A stretch of DNA of 64,000 nt from Fusobacterium sp. JB019 (GTDB lineage: Bacteria > Fusobacteriota > Fusobacteriia > Fusobacteriales > Fusobacteriaceae), in NCBI GenBank assembly GCA_030673965.1, contig JAUTCN010000002.1:1-64000 (forward strand). Direction: 5' to 3'. Both the position numbers and the translations under genes were made by a program. Under the pieces are notes generated by a model. That model was not told the DNA's origin, ran no database searches, and saw nothing but the letters and a program-made list of their open reading frames with translations. Positions within the stretch are counted from its first letter, which is position 1; each line of letters opens with the position of its first letter. Positions 8,319 through 33,541 of this stretch are shown piece by piece.

Positions 8319-9071
8319 ATGGATAGAATAAAAATAGAAGATTTTAATTTTTATTATGGGAAATTTCAAGCAATAAAAAATATAAATATGAATATAAAGG
8401 ATAAAAAGGTAACAGCTTTGATTGGTCCATCAGGATGCGGGAAATCAACATTTTTAAGATCAATCAATAGAATGAATGATCTTATTTTAGATATTAAATA
8501 TGAGGGTAAGATTTCTTTAGATGGAAAGGATGTTCTTGATAAAAACTATAATGTTACAGAACTTAGAAAAAAAGTAGGAATGGTATTTCAAAAACCAAAT
8601 CCATTTCCAAAAAGTATATATGAAAATATAACTTACGCTCCAATTCTTCACGGGGAAAAGGATACGAAGGTTTTAGATGAAATTGTTGAAAATTCTTTAA
8701 AGGCAGTTGCTTTATGGGATGAGGTAAAAGATAAACTACATGAATCAGCCTTAAGATTATCAGGAGGGCAACAGCAAAGATTATGTATAGCAAGAGCAAT
8801 ATCAGTTAATCCAGAAATATTACTTATGGATGAACCAACATCAGCTCTAGATCCAATATCAACAACAAGGATAGAAGAATTAATTAGAAAATTATCAAAG
8901 GACTATACTATTGTAATTGTTACTCATAATATGCAACAAGCTTCAAGAATCTCAGAATATACAGGATTTTTCTATCAAGGAAATTTAGAAGAATTTGATA
9001 AAACAGAAATAATTTTTACAGCACCAAATAATAAAAAGACAGAGGATTATATTACTGGAAAATTTGGGTAA
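8319..9071 (+). CDS. pstB: Phosphate ABC transporter ATPase PstB
   Basis: The 250-residue ATPase energises PstCA. It has Walker [11 protein letters not shown]-loop [17 protein letters not shown] (the PNPFP is PstB-specific), signature LSGGQQQR, Walker [14 protein letters not shown] and the H-loop IVTHNMQQ. Length and motifs are complete. Confidence 0.96.
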
Positions 9072-9104
9072 GATACTAAAAAGATGAAAAAATTAGGAGG
9101 AAAC

Positions 9105-9803
9105 ATGAGAAATTTAGAAGAGAGTTTAAAGGGATTGAATGAACATTATTTAGAGATGTTGAAAAATTTAAATAGAATGTTAGATGTGAATATTGAAATG
9201 GTGGAAGAGGGAAGTAATATCAGTAGTTTATATGGAGAATGTCTTGTTATTGAAGATATAATAAATGCTTTTGAAGTTAACTTAAAAGAAAATTCAATAA
9301 TAGCCATAGCTAGATTTCAACCTGCAGCTAAAAATTTAAGAGAACTTGTGATGCTTATAGATGGTGGAAGATTAGTTGAAAGAATGGGAGATATTTTAAA
9401 GAAAAATATCAAGATATTAAAGGAAATTAATGAAGAGTCTCCAGAGTTAGCTAAAATTTTAAATAAAAGGTTGCTTTCCTATATAAAACAAATTAAAGAT
9501 GTTTATGAAGTATATATTTCTTCTTTTATAAACGGTCAAGAATCTCTTTTGTATGAATTGATAGTTTCTGATGAAAAGATAAATCAAGAGGCAAATAGGA
9601 TAATTCTAGAAATGGAAGAATGTATGAAAGAAGATGATGAAAAAATTCATCATTTAGTAAAAGGAATAATACTTACTAAAAAATATGAAAGATTTGCAGA
9701 TCATATTATTCATTTGGTTGTGGATTTAGTCTATATTTTAAAGGGAGAGAATTTAAGGAAAAAAGAATTATTAGAAAATGAAGTTTTTGATGTCAGTAGA
9801 TAA
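9105..9803 (+). CDS. phoU: Phosphate signalling protein PhoU
   Basis: The 232-residue all-helical protein belongs to the PhoU family and links Pst transport to PhoR signalling as a negative regulator. A start at 9084 is open, but the ATG at 9105 follows TTAGGAGG with four-base spacing, so I use 9105. The sequence has two related three-helix halves with conserved acidic residues, as expected for metal-binding PhoU. It is last in the operon. Confidence 0.9.
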   Translation: MRNLEESLKGLNEHYLEMLKNLNRMLDVNIEMVEEGSNISSLYGECLVIEDIINAFEVNLKENSIIAIARFQPAAKNLRELVMLIDGGRLVERMGDILKKNIKILKEINEESPELAKILNKRLLSYIKQIKDVYEVYISSFINGQESLLYELIVSDEKINQEANRIILEMEECMKEDDEKIHHLVKGIILTKKYERFADHIIHLVVDLVYILKGENLRKKELLENEVFDVSR

Positions 9804-27449: not shown

Positions 27450-30400
27450 ATGACTAAAAAAATAAAAAATAAAAGCTCTATTGTTAGAATTATTATTTCA
27501 AATTTTGATTATGAAAAAATTAAAGAATTAAAGATTCTTTATAAAAAGCATGCAGGTGTAGATACTATTGGAATTCAGATGGAAAAAATAAATTTTGATA
27601 CTGCTGATGAAACAAATAAAATATTCTTTGTAGAGGGAACTCCTAAAGGAAGAAAGGATACTTTAAAAAGAGAAAACATAGGATTAGAATGTGAAACTGA
27701 TAAGGAACATAATATTATTGTTAAAAAATATTATGAAGGAGAAATGATAAAAAATTATAAGATTTCAGGAATATATGAAAAAACAAAATCAAACGAAATT
27801 TTAGTAACAGTAGAGTTAGAAGATTTATTAAATAAAAATGATTCAGATAAGAGAACAATTAAAACAAAAACTACTAGAAAATTATTAAAAGAAGAAGTTT
27901 GTAAAAATTATGCTCTAATAGAAAAAACTGATTTTTCTAAAATAGATTCTAATAAAATTTATAATATAAATAGATTTTTAGATTATCGTTCTAATATGTT
28001 ATATTATTATATTTTTATAAATTATTTTATTATGAAATCAGTTAAAAAAGAAGATTTATCATTAAAAGAAGGAAATGAAAAAGAAATTTGGAAAATTTTT
28101 CAAGTTAAAGATATAAATATCATAAAAAATATTAAAGAGGATATAAAGAAACAATTAAAGGAAAATATATCTCAGTTTATTGAAAATTATGAAGAGAGAA
28201 TAGAAAAATTAAAAGAAAAGGATAACCATCAACATCAAGAGTTAGTTGAAATAAGTAAAGAAAAATTAATAGAACATCTAGATTTAGACATTGATAAAAT
28301 ATTAGAATTATTAGTTGATTTAAGGCATAAATTGATGCATTATGATTATTCATATTTTAATGATCTTTTTACTGGAAAATTAAATTCACAAGAATCTCAA
28401 AAATTAAAATATTTACTTGATTTAAATATTTTTAAAGAATTATCAAAAATAAAAGAAGCTCAGTTAAAAGAAAAATTAAATTATATAACTGATAAAGATG
28501 AAATAGAAATTTTTCAAGGTAAAAAAACTGAAAAAGCTAAAACTATCTATAATCTTTATAATCGTATATGTAATGCTAAAAGAGGTTTTAATAATTATGT
28601 AAATAGTTTTTTTTATAATGATGGTGAAGAAATAATAGAAGTAAAAGAATTAATAAATAATGATTTTGAAAATAGAGATTTAGATAAATTTAAAAATAGA
28701 AGTAATAAGGATAAGGAACTTTTAAATGGAGAAGCTTATTATTCAGATATTCATTTATTTAAAGACTATAAAAAATTATATAATAGAAAAAAAGAGCTTG
28801 TAACAGAGCAATCATCATTAATTGATTATAAGAATAAAGATCAGAAGAAAAGATTGAAAGATCTTAATAATCTTCAAACTAAAAAGAAACAAGAAATGGA
28901 AAAAATAACAAATTTTAATTCTTTGAATAGGTTAGAATATAAAATGAAAATTGCATTTGGGATATTAAATGAAGAGAAGATTTTACATACTTTAAAAGGA
29001 AATTATTTAAATAGAACAGAATTATTTAAACAAGAAAAGATTAATAAAGTTGCTGAATATCTAAAAATTTCTATTGATGATAGCTCAAATAAAAGTTATA
29101 TAGAAGATTTAACTAAAGCTTTAGATAACAATAAGGAAGAGAGTATTTTGAAGGATAAAGTAGAGAATAATTTAATTAAATTTTATACTTTAATTTATTT
29201 ATTACTTCCAAGAGAAATAAAAGGAGATTTTTTAGGATTTATAAAGCATAATTATTATCAAATGAAAAACAATAATTTTGAATCAGAAGAATTAAAAAAT
29301 GAAAATGAAGAAGATAATTTTTTTCATAATTTAAGAAGATTTGAGGCAATTAACAAAAAAATAGAAATTTTTTCATATGATTTTTCTTTCTTAAATGGTG
29401 GAGATATAGAAATACAAAATTTATATACTAAACTAGGAATTGAAGGAAAATTCTTTAAAAGAAATGGTGTTGAAAAAGATTTTTTCAAACATAATATTTT
29501 TGTTACTTTGATAAAATATTATGAAAATATATTTAAACTTTGTAATGATGTAGAATTATCTTGTTTACTTGCTTATTGCTCAGAAAATAATAAAAAATTA
29601 GAAATAGATGAATTAGAAAAAGATATAAAACCAGGAAAATATTTAAATTTTTCAAATGTAATTAAATATTCATTAAAAAAATTTAATTTGATAGATAAAT
29701 TACAAATGGAAAAAAGTTTAAGCAACATTAAATCAAAATTAGATTTAAGAAATAAAATAGATCATTTAAATTTTAAAGAATTATTTATTGATGTTTTAAA
29801 TAATGAAGGGCAATTAAAAGAAGAGGAAGATAAATTAATACAAGTTTTTAAAGAATTATCAGGTGTTATTAATTTTAGAGCTTTAGATAAAAATATAATG
29901 AATGATTTTTATATGAGGAAAGAACAGCTTCACTTTAATTTAAGAAAATATTTAGCAGAAAATGGAATGAAAGAAAAAACTTCGAAAGATTATTTATCTA
30001 AGCAATCTAAAGAAAAAGAATTATTAGCTTTTTATAAATTAACAAAAGATAACTATCCAGAAATAATAAAAACTATTAATTTTGTGAATGCTTATATTGA
30101 AAAAGGAGAGCTTGATTTAAAAATAAAAAAAGGTTTTAAAGATAAATATGGAATGAAAGAAATTAATTTAATCAAAAAGAAAAATAGAAAAACAGAAAAA
30201 TATCCAAAAAACATAGAAAATATAGAAAAAGATAATAATGAATTAGAAAAAGCGCAATTAATAAGAAAATTAAATGAAGATGTTTCTTTATTGATTGGTT
30301 TATATAAAAGAGAGAAGACCATTAAAATTAAAAAATATATTACAGATAAAATTTTAAAAAGAGATGATGTAAAAGCATTAACATTTAGAATTCATAATAG

Positions 30401-30797
30401 CTTAAATGTAGATTTAGTAAAAAAATTATATTTTGAAATAGTAAATAATAAATTAAATGTTTATATGGATGATAGGTATCTTAATTATGATTCTGAAAAT
30501 AGTTCTATTGAATTGTTTGACAATATAATTATAGAATTTAAATATGAAAATGATAATAAAAAAAGTGAAGAATTTTTTGAAATTAAAGGATATTTAAAAA
30601 ATAATTCAAGTAAAGTTTATTATCACAATACTTTTGATTATAAGAATAATAAAATTATTCTTCATCAAACAGAACATAATGCTAAAGAAATTGAGTATAA
30701 AAAGAAAATTAAAATTGGAGGTAAGGACATAGATGTTAGAACTAAAAATTTAAAACATGATTGGGATTTTAAATTTTGGGAAGTTAAACACTCTTAA
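27450..30797 (+). CDS. cas13c: Cas13c, type VI-C CRISPR RNA-guided RNase
   Basis: The 1115-residue, lysine-rich protein carries two RxxxxH HEPN active sites: RHKLMH (R292, H297) and RNKIDH (R767, H772). These are the catalytic pairs of Cas13 nucleases, which cleave target and bystander RNA once the crRNA pairs. Size, a single effector, an array with a 5' repeat handle directly downstream, and absence of cas1/cas2 fit type VI-C. A third RxxxxH (RKEQLH, R823) does not look like a HEPN motif. The ATG follows AGAAGGAG at 27435-27442, and a strong terminator stands upstream, so transcription is independent. Base composition is slightly poorer in GC than the flanks, consistent with transfer. Confidence 0.9.
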   Translation: MTKKIKNKSSIVRIIISNFDYEKIKELKILYKKHAGVDTIGIQMEKINFDTADETNKIFFVEGTPKGRKDTLKRENIGLECETDKEHNIIVKKYYEGEMIKNYKISGIYEKTKSNEILVTVELEDLLNKNDSDKRTIKTKTTRKLLKEEVCKNYALIEKTDFSKIDSNKIYNINRFLDYRSNMLYYYIFINYFIMKSVKKEDLSLKEGNEKEIWKIFQVKDINIIKNIKEDIKKQLKENISQFIENYEERIEKLKEKDNHQHQELVEISKEKLIEHLDLDIDKILELLVDLRHKLMHYDYSYFNDLFTGKLNSQESQKLKYLLDLNIFKELSKIKEAQLKEKLNYITDKDEIEIFQGKKTEKAKTIYNLYNRICNAKRGFNNYVNSFFYNDGEEIIEVKELINNDFENRDLDKFKNRSNKDKELLNGEAYYSDIHLFKDYKKLYNRKKELVTEQSSLIDYKNKDQKKRLKDLNNLQTKKKQEMEKITNFNSLNRLEYKMKIAFGILNEEKILHTLKGNYLNRTELFKQEKINKVAEYLKISIDDSSNKSYIEDLTKALDNNKEESILKDKVENNLIKFYTLIYLLLPREIKGDFLGFIKHNYYQMKNNNFESEELKNENEEDNFFHNLRRFEAINKKIEIFSYDFSFLNGGDIEIQNLYTKLGIEGKFFKRNGVEKDFFKHNIFVTLIKYYENIFKLCNDVELSCLLAYCSENNKKLEIDELEKDIKPGKYLNFSNVIKYSLKKFNLIDKLQMEKSLSNIKSKLDLRNKIDHLNFKELFIDVLNNEGQLKEEEDKLIQVFKELSGVINFRALDKNIMNDFYMRKEQLHFNLRKYLAENGMKEKTSKDYLSKQSKEKELLAFYKLTKDNYPEIIKTINFVNAYIEKGELDLKIKKGFKDKYGMKEINLIKKKNRKTEKYPKNIENIEKDNNELEKAQLIRKLNEDVSLLIGLYKREKTIKIKKYITDKILKRDDVKALTFRIHNSLNVDLVKKLYFEIVNNKLNVYMDDRYLNYDSENSSIELFDNIIIEFKYENDNKKSEEFFEIKGYLKNNSSKVYYHNTFDYKNNKIILHQTEHNAKEIEYKKKIKIGGKDIDVRTKNLKHDWDFKFWEVKHS

Positions 30798-30800
30798 GTC

Positions 30801-30829
30801 TTTACAAATAAAAGTTTTAGTGGTATAAT
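30801..30829 (+). promoter_or_regulatory. Strong promoter for the small hydrophobic peptide gene
   Basis: TTTACA at 30801-30806 and a perfect TATAAT at 30824-30829 are 17 bases apart, starting four bases after the cas13c stop. Transcription would start near 30836 and give a roughly 90-base 5' UTR. Confidence 0.75.
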
Positions 30830-30929
30830 TGCTTTGAAAATATCAAGTTGTTATTTTTAGCTTTAATCTTTTAAATAGATTTTATTAATGAAGAGTCGTT
30901 AAGACAAATCTAATTTTAGGAGGTTACAT

Positions 30930-30992
30930 ATGGACTTATTTATCCTTATAGCTAATATAGCAATTGCAGTTATTCAGTATTTTGCTAAATAA
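30930..30992 (+). CDS. 20-residue hydrophobic peptide, candidate type I toxin
   Basis: AGGAGG at 30918-30923 lies six bases before an ATG that opens a 20-codon frame (MDLFILIANIAIAVIQ... ending YFAK). The peptide is one membrane-spanning stretch with a charged end, the look of type I toxin peptides. The mRNA has its own strong promoter. Its 5' end (AAAATATCAAGTTG, 30837-30850) is perfectly complementary over 14 bases to its 3' end (CAACTTGATATTTT, 31006-31019), as in toxin mRNAs held silent by end-to-end pairing. A minus-strand promoter TTGTCT-17-TAAAAT (30907 to 30879) could make an antisense RNA over the 5' UTR. The toxin role is inferred. Confidence 0.6.
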   Translation: MDLFILIANIAIAVIQYFAK

Positions 30993-31000
30993 TTGTAATT

Positions 31001-31022
31001 AATATCAACTTGATATTTTTTT
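31001..31022 (+). terminator. AT-only terminator of the small peptide mRNA
   Basis: AATATCA pairs with TGATATT around ACT and is followed by T-rich sequence. The same bases form the long-range pairing partner of the 5' end. Confidence 0.6.
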
Positions 31023-31037
31023 ATTTGCTTTCAAAAA

Positions 31038-31079
31038 CTGTCGACCTCCGATAAGGAAAAAACACCTATAGATCGACAG
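31038..31079 (+). repeat. Hairpin element, copy 1 (upstream of the Cas13c array)
   Basis: A 42-base element has outer stem CTGTCGA/TCGACAG, an inner AGG/CCT stem around a variable eight-base loop (AAAAAACA), and a T-run after it. The core matches copy 2 at 32187-32228 outside the loop; the match extends upstream through TTTCAAAAA. The single-stranded ACCTCC is complementary to GGAGGT of the small peptide's ribosome site. It may be a terminator, an sRNA or a mobile-element end. Confidence 0.7.
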
Positions 31080-31091
31080 ATTTTTAATTCC

Positions 31092-31120
31092 TTGATTTTA
31101 TTATCATTATGTAATATACT
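31092..31120 (+). promoter_or_regulatory. Promoter in the leader of the Cas13c array
   Basis: TTGATT at 31092-31097 and TATACT at 31115-31120 are 17 bases apart and face the array. A weak dyad TGAAAAAA/TTTTTTCA follows at about 31132-31153. Confidence 0.6.
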
Positions 31121-31212
31121 ATTTTTAGTAGTGAAAAAAAAGAGCTTTTTTCATGAGTTCGACAATAGTACACACTTTGAGCCAATGATATCAAAGATTT
31201 ATATCACTACCT

Positions 31213-31836
31213 AGACTAAACTCACTAATGTGAGATTTAAACCTTCAAAGTTCCATACTTGGTTTGGGTGGAGTTTTAAGACTAAACTCACTAATGTGAG
31301 ATTTAAACTTTTTTTAAAACTTTTAATTGTTCTTTTGTTTTCTCAGACTAAACTCACTAATGTGAGATTTAAACAAGCTCGAGATATCAAAAATTTCATC
31401 TGTAACTTTATAGACTAAACTCACTAATGTGAGATTTAAACTATAACTTCAAATAATATTTATCACTTTGAAAAGAGACTAAACTCACTAATGTGAGATT
31501 TAAACTTGTACTTGACAGTAATATTGCTGCGGAATACAGTCAGACTAAACTCACTAATGTGAGATTTAAACTCCATTCCAACTGTAAGAGGATTATGAAT
31601 CATCATAGACTAAACTCACTAATGTGAGATTTAAACTGTTTTTAGTATCAACATTGAACATTCTATGTAACAAGACTAAACTCACTAATGTGAGATTTAA
31701 ACATTTTTGAAATTCATTTATACCAAACTTATCTATATAGACTAAACTCACTAATGTGAGATTTAAACCTGTAAAATTCGTCTTTTTGTCCTTGTTCGGT
31801 GTATAAAGACTAAACTCACTAATGTGAGATTTAAAT
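31213..31836 (+). CRISPR. Type VI-C CRISPR array, 10 repeats and 9 spacers
   Basis: The 30-base repeat starts AGACTAAACTC, contains stem CTCAC-TAAT-GTGAG, and ends GATTTAAAC. Repeats begin at 31213, 31279, 31345, 31412, 31476, 31542, 31607, 31673, 31739 and 31807. Spacers are 34-38 bases. Only the last repeat differs (final base T, not C), so the leader is on the left and transcription is rightward. A crRNA with the repeat at its 5' side fits Cas13c. Spacer 6 (31572-31606) reads, on the complementary strand, as MMIHNPLTVGM, a ClpP-like phage prohead protease motif. Confidence 0.97.
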
Positions 31837-32186: not shown

Positions 32187-32228
32187 CTGTCGACCTCCGA
32201 TAAGGCAATTTTACCTATAGATCGACAG
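32187..32228 (+). repeat. Hairpin element, copy 2 (between the two arrays)
   Basis: This is identical in stem sequence to copy 1 and in the same orientation 1149 bases away. Only the eight-base loop differs (CAATTTTA), and T6 follows. A partial inverted match (GGGGGTCGACAG, 32317-32328) lies in the leader of the second array, with 11 of 12 bases complementary to the CTGTCGACCTCC of the hairpin and the twelfth able to form a G-U pair in RNA. Confidence 0.7.
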
Positions 32229-32351: not shown

Positions 32352-32375
32352 TTTGAATAGGTTACAAGGGTACCT

Positions 32376-33541
32376 AATTTAATCTAACCAATGTGGAATG
32401 TAAATCTACCTACCATCATTGCTTTTATTTGCTCTATCTTTTTAATTTAATCTAACCAATGTGGAATGTAAATTTAACTGAAAGCACAAATTATAAAGAA
32501 ATAAGCTGGGAATTTAATCTAACCAATGTGGAATGTAAATTCATTTTTCAAGCTCTTTAAATAAAGCTTTAAAAGAAATTTAATCTAACCAATGTGGAAT
32601 GTAAATACCGGAAAAGTTTACAACAATTATTATTTTCAAATAGAATTTAATCTAACCAATGTGGAATGTAAATCTTTTTTATTTATTTTTATTAGTGGAT
32701 TGCTGTCATAATTTAATCTAACCAATGTGGAATGTAAATAAAGAAAAACAAGGGGCTATATTAAATCAACTGTTTGAATTTAATCTAACCAATGTGGAAT
32801 GTAAATTGGGGCTTACCATATCTTCAGGAATATAGTCAGGGTAATTTAATCTAACCAATGTGGAATGTAAATGAATTAGGTGGACAAATTAAAGTTTTAG
32901 TGCCTAAAATTTAATCTAACCAATGTGGAATGTAAATTCATCCCCTGTTAAGCACTTCTCTCTTCGATTATAGCTTAAATTTAATCTAACCAATGTGGAA
33001 TGTAAATTTGTGTTCATCAGAAAAAACACAAAGTTTGTCCTAGCAATTTAATCTAACCAATGTGGAATGTAAATCAATGGCATCTTTAAAGGATAATAAA
33101 TTTTTATCAAGAAATTTAATCTAACCAATGTGGAATGTAAATAAATACTATATCTTTTACATTTTCCTTTGCTCCGTTCAATTTAATCTAACCAATGTGG
33201 AATGTAAATATAACATTAATGTTCCTATAGTGGAAATTATAGGAATTTAATCTAACCAATGTGGAATGTAAATGGAGGTGGATTGTTAAGAGAAACAGAG
33301 TTATATCTGTAATTTAATCTAACCAATGTGGAATGTAAATTAATACCGCACGAGCTACTATAAGACCATCTTTGTTTAATTTAATCTAACCAATGTGGAA
33401 TGTAAATTTATGAATAGTCTCTGTATAGCAGACACTGCATAAAAATTTAATCTAACCAATGTGGAATGTAAATTATCAGAAAGAAATTATGGATGCTTTT
33501 AATAATTCTAAAATTTAATCTAACCATTGTGGAACAAGTTA
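32376..33541 (+). CRISPR. Second CRISPR array, 18 repeats and 17 spacers, type I-B-like repeat
   Basis: The 30-base repeat starts AATTTAATCTAACC, has a short CCA/TGG stem and ends GGAATGTAAAT. Starts are 32376, 32444, 32511, 32577, 32644, 32710, 32777, 32843, 32908, 32978, 33045, 33113, 33180, 33244, 33311, 33378, 33444 and 33512. Spacers are 34-40 bases. The last repeat is degenerate (CCATTGTGG, then the 3' end lost), so the leader is on the left. The repeat resembles type I-B repeats of Fusobacterium and Clostridium by its TAAAT end; no Cascade genes are in the window. It aligns with the Cas13c repeat at 21 of 30 positions. Confidence 0.95.

Follow-up and report, generated by a model that had tools for sequence, protein, structure and literature searches.

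What lies between cas13c, the effector gene of a type VI-C CRISPR (clustered regularly interspaced short palindromic repeats) system, and the repeat array that follows it in Fusobacterium sp. JB019? We analyzed a stretch of 64,000 nucleotides (nt) of this genome (contig JAUTCN010000002.1), called the window in the following, and in it a mini-gene of 20 codons located directly downstream of the cas13c stop codon. The comparison with other loci suggests that this mini-gene is a real and conserved component of type VI-C loci, found at the same spot with different sequences. On balance we favor the reading that it codes for an RNA-gated, type I-toxin-like membrane peptide which is a regular part of VI-C loci and probably forms a second arm of Cas13c immunity.

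The locus was assigned to type VI-C since both the cas13c effector gene and an associated array of 10 repeats are found in the window. The parts of the locus on which the argument is based are:

27450 to 30797, plus strand: cas13c, type VI-C effector (NCBIfam NF038193)
30801 to 30829, plus strand: mini-gene promoter TTTACA-17-TATAAT with TGn, predicted start site at about 30836 (from the sequence and the position of the −35 box in five loci)
30836 to 30929, plus strand: structured 5′ untranslated region of 94 nt (Shine–Dalgarno sequence fully paired in the predicted ensemble)
30837 to 30850, plus strand: 5′ arm of the mini-gene mRNA, pairing with 31006–31019 (exact complement, 500 shuffles)
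30918 to 30923, plus strand: Shine–Dalgarno (SD) sequence AGGAGG (from the sequence; likewise in three other loci)
30930 to 30992, plus strand: mini-gene, ATG to TAA, 20 codons and stop, peptide MDLFILIANIAIAVIQYFAK (analogues at the same place in three other loci)
31006 to 31027, plus strand: 3′ arm (31006–31019) and U-tract, a short palindromic hairpin doubling as terminator (from the sequence)
31214 to 31836, plus strand: type VI-C CRISPR array, 10 repeats GACTAAACTCACTAATGTGAGATTTAAAC (repeat detection)

The cas13c product of 1115 amino acids (aa) matches the family VI_Cas13c with 533 bits (E 1e-159). An earlier note, made from the letters of the window, had described a promoter directly past the cas13c stop codon, an AGGAGG ribosome site and a hydrophobic frame of 20 codons, and all three are present. 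The promoter begins 3 nt past the stop codon, matches the consensus at 11/12 positions and has an extended −10 element. Type I toxins such as TisB, Hok and AapA are small hydrophobic peptides with a structured mRNA and an RNA antitoxin. The window peptide is likewise a hydrophobic, putative membrane peptide of less than 60 aa; its best 15-residue Kyte–Doolittle mean is 2.49, compared with 2.65, 2.23 and 1.40 for its relatives in other loci. An Rfam search gave no match.

Is the mini-gene found behind other cas13c genes? Our survey comprised one genome per species, with 61 Fusobacteriaceae and 98 Fusobacteriota genomes, and cas13c is present in five species. The window locus is called G000; the others are G028 (L043), G030 (L040), G006 (L087) and G009 (L041). 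Four species, belonging to three genera, have a mini-gene immediately behind cas13c; it codes for 20 aa in the window, 27 aa in G028, 31 aa in G030 and 25 aa in G006. Frame and ribosome site are therefore conserved at the same place in all undamaged cas13c 3′ flanks (4/4), and the fifth locus, G009, is a relic. The −35 box begins 2–5 nt past the stop codon in 5/5 loci with a readable 3′ flank, and 2–4 nt past it in the four loci with a mini-gene.

The individual loci repeat this arrangement with different letters. In G028 the promoter TTGTAA-17-TACAAT is situated 4 nt past the stop codon and is followed by AGGAGG and the peptide MLNFKICILVLKAALVVLEVCEYVMDK; the predicted mRNA starts with GCAGGATAT and has ATATCCTGC beyond the stop codon of the frame. 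G030 has TTGCAA-17-TATACT 2 nt past the stop codon, AGGAGG, the peptide MNIITILLSFQIMYDAYKLIVDVKKLLEMIK and a strong terminator. The locus G006 served as a prospective test: its cas13c gene is cut by a contig edge, the C-terminal part was first located on another contig, and the mini-gene was then found behind it, with TTGATT-17-TATTTT 2 nt past the stop codon, AGGAGG and the peptide MNYELLICLLGLAKSIIELIIIYKK. Here GAGUGCCC lies at the start of the predicted mRNA and GGGUGCUC ahead of the U-tract. In this draft assembly a repeated element marks the point where cas13c is interrupted, and the mini-gene is intact. The relic G009 is on a Cetobacterium somerae plasmid (NZ_CP092523), where cas13c is annotated as two coding sequences; promoter, 5′ GAGUGCCC and 3′ GGGUGCUC-U7 are kept, and the frame between the start and the 3′ arm is lost. 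This decayed VI-C locus is found at about 7240–7440 of L041 (reverse complement), and its array is inverted relative to the other loci. The peptides of the mini-genes are nearly unrelated in sequence; Cas13c itself aligns at 33–36%.

The earlier note had placed the mini-gene between cas13c and its array. This is correct for the window but not as a rule, because in G030 the array is upstream of cas13c while the mini-gene remains behind cas13c. The mini-gene thus follows cas13c and not the array, and we could rule out that it codes for an array leader peptide.

The second property shared with type I toxins concerns the mRNA. The 14-base pairing of the mRNA ends claimed in the earlier note is exact, 30837–30850 being the reverse complement of 31006–31019, and an imperfect arm reaches 19 nt at 95%. 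The predicted start site and the end at the U-tract coincide with the two arms. The end duplex has a calculated stability of −17.9 kcal/mol, and none of 500 shuffled sequences was as stable; for the fold of the whole mRNA we obtained z = −7.6 versus shuffles, with an unpaired probability of the SD of 0.00 in the predicted ensemble. According to these models the window mRNA would be structured and locked for translation, and the mRNAs of G028 and G006 are predicted to be end-paired, too, the one of G030 not. The end duplexes AAAATATCAAGTTG, GCAGGATAT and GUGAGUGCCC reach p ≤ 0.03 in G000, G028 and G006, and the relic p 0.002. End pairing is present in three of the four intact units and in the relic, and the letters of the arms differ between the loci and yet pair. 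For G030 the predicted partner of the mRNA 5′ end is the region of the start codon instead of the 3′ end.

Could such a frame be fortuitous in an AT-rich intergenic stretch, where short frames are often hydrophobic by accident? We scanned blindly for frames of 15–40 aa with SD and ATG in 706 kb of strand, consisting of the window and loci fetched for other reasons. Among about a dozen frames the three located behind cas13c (G028, window and G030) were the most hydrophobic ones (2.65, 2.49 and 1.40), and the next frame reached 0.66. A further 285 kb of strand, partly overlapping, yielded the G006 peptide (2.23) and one other hydrophobic frame (2.17). If about one to two frames of this kind are expected in each Mb of strand, a given 150-nt stretch should contain one in just a few of 10,000 cases, and together with three independent repeats this is far beyond chance. 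With 4/4 undamaged flanks, one of them predicted prospectively, and a single further hydrophobic frame preceded by an SD in almost 1 Mb of strand, a chance origin can practically be disregarded. In the control DNA just one more mini-frame led by an SD is strongly hydrophobic; it lies on the minus strand at L099:2610 (MRQGLVLECFSFLIMVVYQNIYQRRLMNL) and probably arose by chance.

The mini-gene appears to be unique to cas13c loci. Searches with the single peptides in the 98 Fusobacteriota genomes gave no relatives outside cas13c loci, and a profile search in the 61 Fusobacteriaceae genomes gave nothing convincing. The window peptide alone and a DNA search likewise gave no relatives; the counterparts can be recognized by position and anatomy only. 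A mini-gene is absent behind the cas13a gene of Leptotrichia and beside the other CRISPR arrays of the window genome. Scans for Cas13c in genome contigs, viral contigs and phages gave no further loci, and the one locus obtained from plasmids is the Cetobacterium relic, identical with G009. Two groups of candidate members were rejected: the Leptotrichia matches to the promoter stretch (query 2–32) are ordinary promoters of an unrelated gene, and Cas13a loci are without mini-gene.

Is the mini-gene then part of a type I toxin–antitoxin module? Anatomy and conservation support the description of the mini-gene as toxin-like and hydrophobic, with an mRNA built like that of type I toxins and a place in the cas13c locus. 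By analogy, type I toxins are the closest system in anatomy: the hydrophobic peptide of 20–31 residues, the strong SD within a structure and the long-range 5′–3′ pairing of the mRNA are alike. In contrast to type I toxins, neither an antisense or trans RNA antitoxin nor a sequence relationship was found here, and the gene is tied to cas13c. Since the anatomy of toxin and mRNA suits type I toxins, the unit might be a self-contained module with an antisense RNA antitoxin, merely stabilizing the cas13c locus or a mobile island independently of Cas13c activity. The intact mini-gene next to the interrupted cas13c of G006 points in this direction, as control of the mini-gene seems not to need Cas13c, and one of the loci is on a plasmid.

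A precedent for such a module exists in Clostridioides difficile, where the type I modules CD2517.1-RCd8 and CD2907.1-RCd9 adjoin CRISPR arrays (Maikova 2018, reviewed in PMC6563280), a co-localization which this review presents as previously unreported in other genomes. With a toxin-like membrane peptide gene beside an array these modules are, again by analogy, the closest system in genomic setting. The C. difficile array loci are scattered over the chromosome, the toxins have mostly 50–59 aa and the antisense RNAs are proven (PMC6563280), whereas here the neighbor is the cas13c gene, and no mini-gene accompanies the remaining arrays of the genome. The minus-strand promoter (30907–30879) from which the earlier note derived a possible antisense RNA has little weight: its score of 9/12 is at chance level, with 17 sites of this grade or better in the 1.5-kb window region and 11.2 expected by chance, and G028 has no counterpart of that grade. 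No antisense promoter was above chance or conserved between the loci. Moreover, the strict placement behind cas13c and the absence elsewhere where tested exceed what a free-moving stabilizer needs. We give the self-contained module a real chance, if one a little below even.

A different kind of dependence had been suggested by comparison with CreTA, in which loss of Cas frees a toxin. These CRISPR-regulated toxin–antitoxin modules (type VIII) have degenerate repeats in ectopic position, and with the help of a guide their effector represses the promoter of the toxin (PMC9458426). Applied to our locus, Cas13c with a crRNA-like guide would repress the toxin, and loss of Cas13c would free it. The small toxic-type gene inside a CRISPR-Cas locus is a common feature, and the loss of the frame in G009, where cas13c is broken, would fit. 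However, the analogy is not borne out as regards repeats and guide. Near the mini-gene there is no ectopic or degenerate CRISPR repeat, the best local matches in G000, G028 and G030 being no better than those of shuffles, and a guide of partial complementarity was not found either: none of 25 spacers or tails tested against the mini-gene mRNA was significantly complementary. We therefore rejected a crRNA-type antitoxin. The VI-C repeat RNA was rejected as an antisense of the SD region or untranslated region, too, because p 0.05 was obtained in the window only and the match is not specific across loci. The intact mini-gene beside the interrupted cas13c of G006, a genomic hint from a draft assembly, is a further argument against addiction in which Cas13c has to act as the repressor. 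Taken together we hold CreTA-like addiction for quite improbable.

Partner genes of Cas13 that act on the membrane are known from type VI-B, where Csx27 or Csx28 adjoin the Cas13 gene; Csx28 of type VI-B2 depolarizes the membrane after sensing by Cas13b (PMC13288109). The mini-gene could accordingly be a minimal functional counterpart of Csx27/Csx28, that is, a non-toxic accessory peptide which serves Cas13c as an anchor or modulator or joins it in forming pores. Its strict linkage to cas13c, the hydrophobic or amphipathic nature of the peptides and the membrane accessory proteins of type VI-B (PMC13288109) agree with this idea. The window peptide has no Pfam or NCBIfam match and hence none to Csx27/Csx28, a search which has little power with a 20-mer. 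Csx28 is a conventional pore-forming protein acting with Cas13b, and here we find a peptide of 20–31 residues with its own promoter and a predicted locked mRNA, neither of which a subunit would need. In addition, the peptides have hardly any sequence in common, in contrast to Cas13c, which is still alignable. For these reasons an accessory peptide seems to us a rather unlikely explanation.

How might an RNA-gated toxin-like peptide serve Cas13c immunity? The mini-gene would be an independently transcribed gene of about 170–200 nt, appended to the 3′ end of cas13c and coding for a membrane-active peptide of 20–31 residues, TisB-like in style. The fold of its mRNA would hold translation down: the 5′ end would pair with the 3′ end, in G030 with the start codon instead, and either the SD or the AUG would be hidden in the structure. 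The peptide would be made only once this lock, or an RNA keeping it closed, is removed. Activated Cas13c cutting cellular RNA could bring about the loss of the lock or of an unstable RNA antitoxin, and the freed peptide would then depolarize the membrane and drive the cell into deeper dormancy. Type VI-C would thus carry a built-in membrane toxin as second effector, with an end-to-end locked mRNA that collateral cutting by Cas13c unlocks directly or through the antitoxin, and phage sensing would lead to depolarization via an RNA switch and not via a second messenger or a pore protein. We put this specific scheme forward tentatively and with considerable doubt. A Cas13c-linked dormancy peptide is nevertheless plausible because of two precedents, namely the depolarization by Csx28 (PMC13288109) and activated Cas13a, which indirectly switches on toxin–antitoxin RNases (PMC11042736).

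Several observations weigh against the toxin-like, RNA-gated reading. The end pairing in G030 is without significance (p ∼0.11), and the G030 peptide is just moderately hydrophobic. In silico deletion of the 3′ arm leaves the SD closed, so that a simple switch by trimming and opening gains no support from this model alone. No antitoxin RNA was identified, the minus-strand promoters being at chance level and different between the loci, and there is no antisense partner or complementary segment to the mini-gene mRNA within 9 kb. Promoter-like sites 0–6 nt past a stop codon are not rare in DNA as AT-rich as this, as shown by 12 of 216 control genes with one of at least 9/12. Finally, the data comprise five loci only, and the divergence of the peptides is too large to test for selection.

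In the literature searched, whose scope leaves out most subscription papers, no mini-gene or accessory gene is described for type VI-C or Cas13c, and what appears to be new here is the strict partnership of a type I-toxin-like gene with cas13c. With 20–31 codons and unrecognizable by sequence similarity, such a gene is easily overlooked. With a toxin-like gene at a constant position behind cas13c, type VI-C would possess a second component, and Cas13-induced dormancy becomes directly testable in this type, since loci that have the mini-gene can be compared with loci that lack it. If the toxin reading is true, native VI-C loci cloned as tools would carry a hidden toxic gene, and CRISPR sensing and cell arrest would be connected in a novel way if Cas13c cleavage opens the locked mRNA.

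Two further elements separate the mini-gene from the VI-C array in the window:

31038 to 31079, plus strand: CTGTCGACCTCC...ATCGACAG hairpin, a boundary element and not part of the mini-gene (corresponds to the 5′ leader portion of the other CRISPR arrays in the genome)
31092 to 31120, plus strand: candidate promoter of the VI-C array, TTGATT-17-TATACT, distinct from the mini-gene promoter (promoter scan)

The hairpin occurs in the window at 31038–31079 and 32187–32228. Counted from the one before the VI-C array there are seven further copies, each upstream of an array with another repeat (TTTAATCTAACCAATGTGGAATGTAAAT); beyond the two in the window, six copies are on the same contig, each about 160 nt before an array of this repeat. 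The VI-C array apparently acquired a portion of another type's leader. A second complementary element, GGGGGTCGACAG, lies just upstream of the TTTAATCTAACCAATGTGGAATGTAAAT arrays and would allow an attenuator-like alternative pairing with the hairpin. A similar element, GTCGACC..ATCGAC, is found behind the mini-gene in G006. In G028 cas13c is flanked by two VI-C arrays, one on each side, whose leaders are nearly identical (L043:4974–5232 and 9050–9373). Directly downstream of the VI-C array of the window follows a second array of the repeat family TTTAATCTAACCAATGTGGAATGTAAAT (about 32375–33530). Both leader types end with TACCTA directly before the first repeat (31207–31213 and 32369–32375 in the window), a motif at which one and the same adaptation machinery could dock to serve the two kinds of array.
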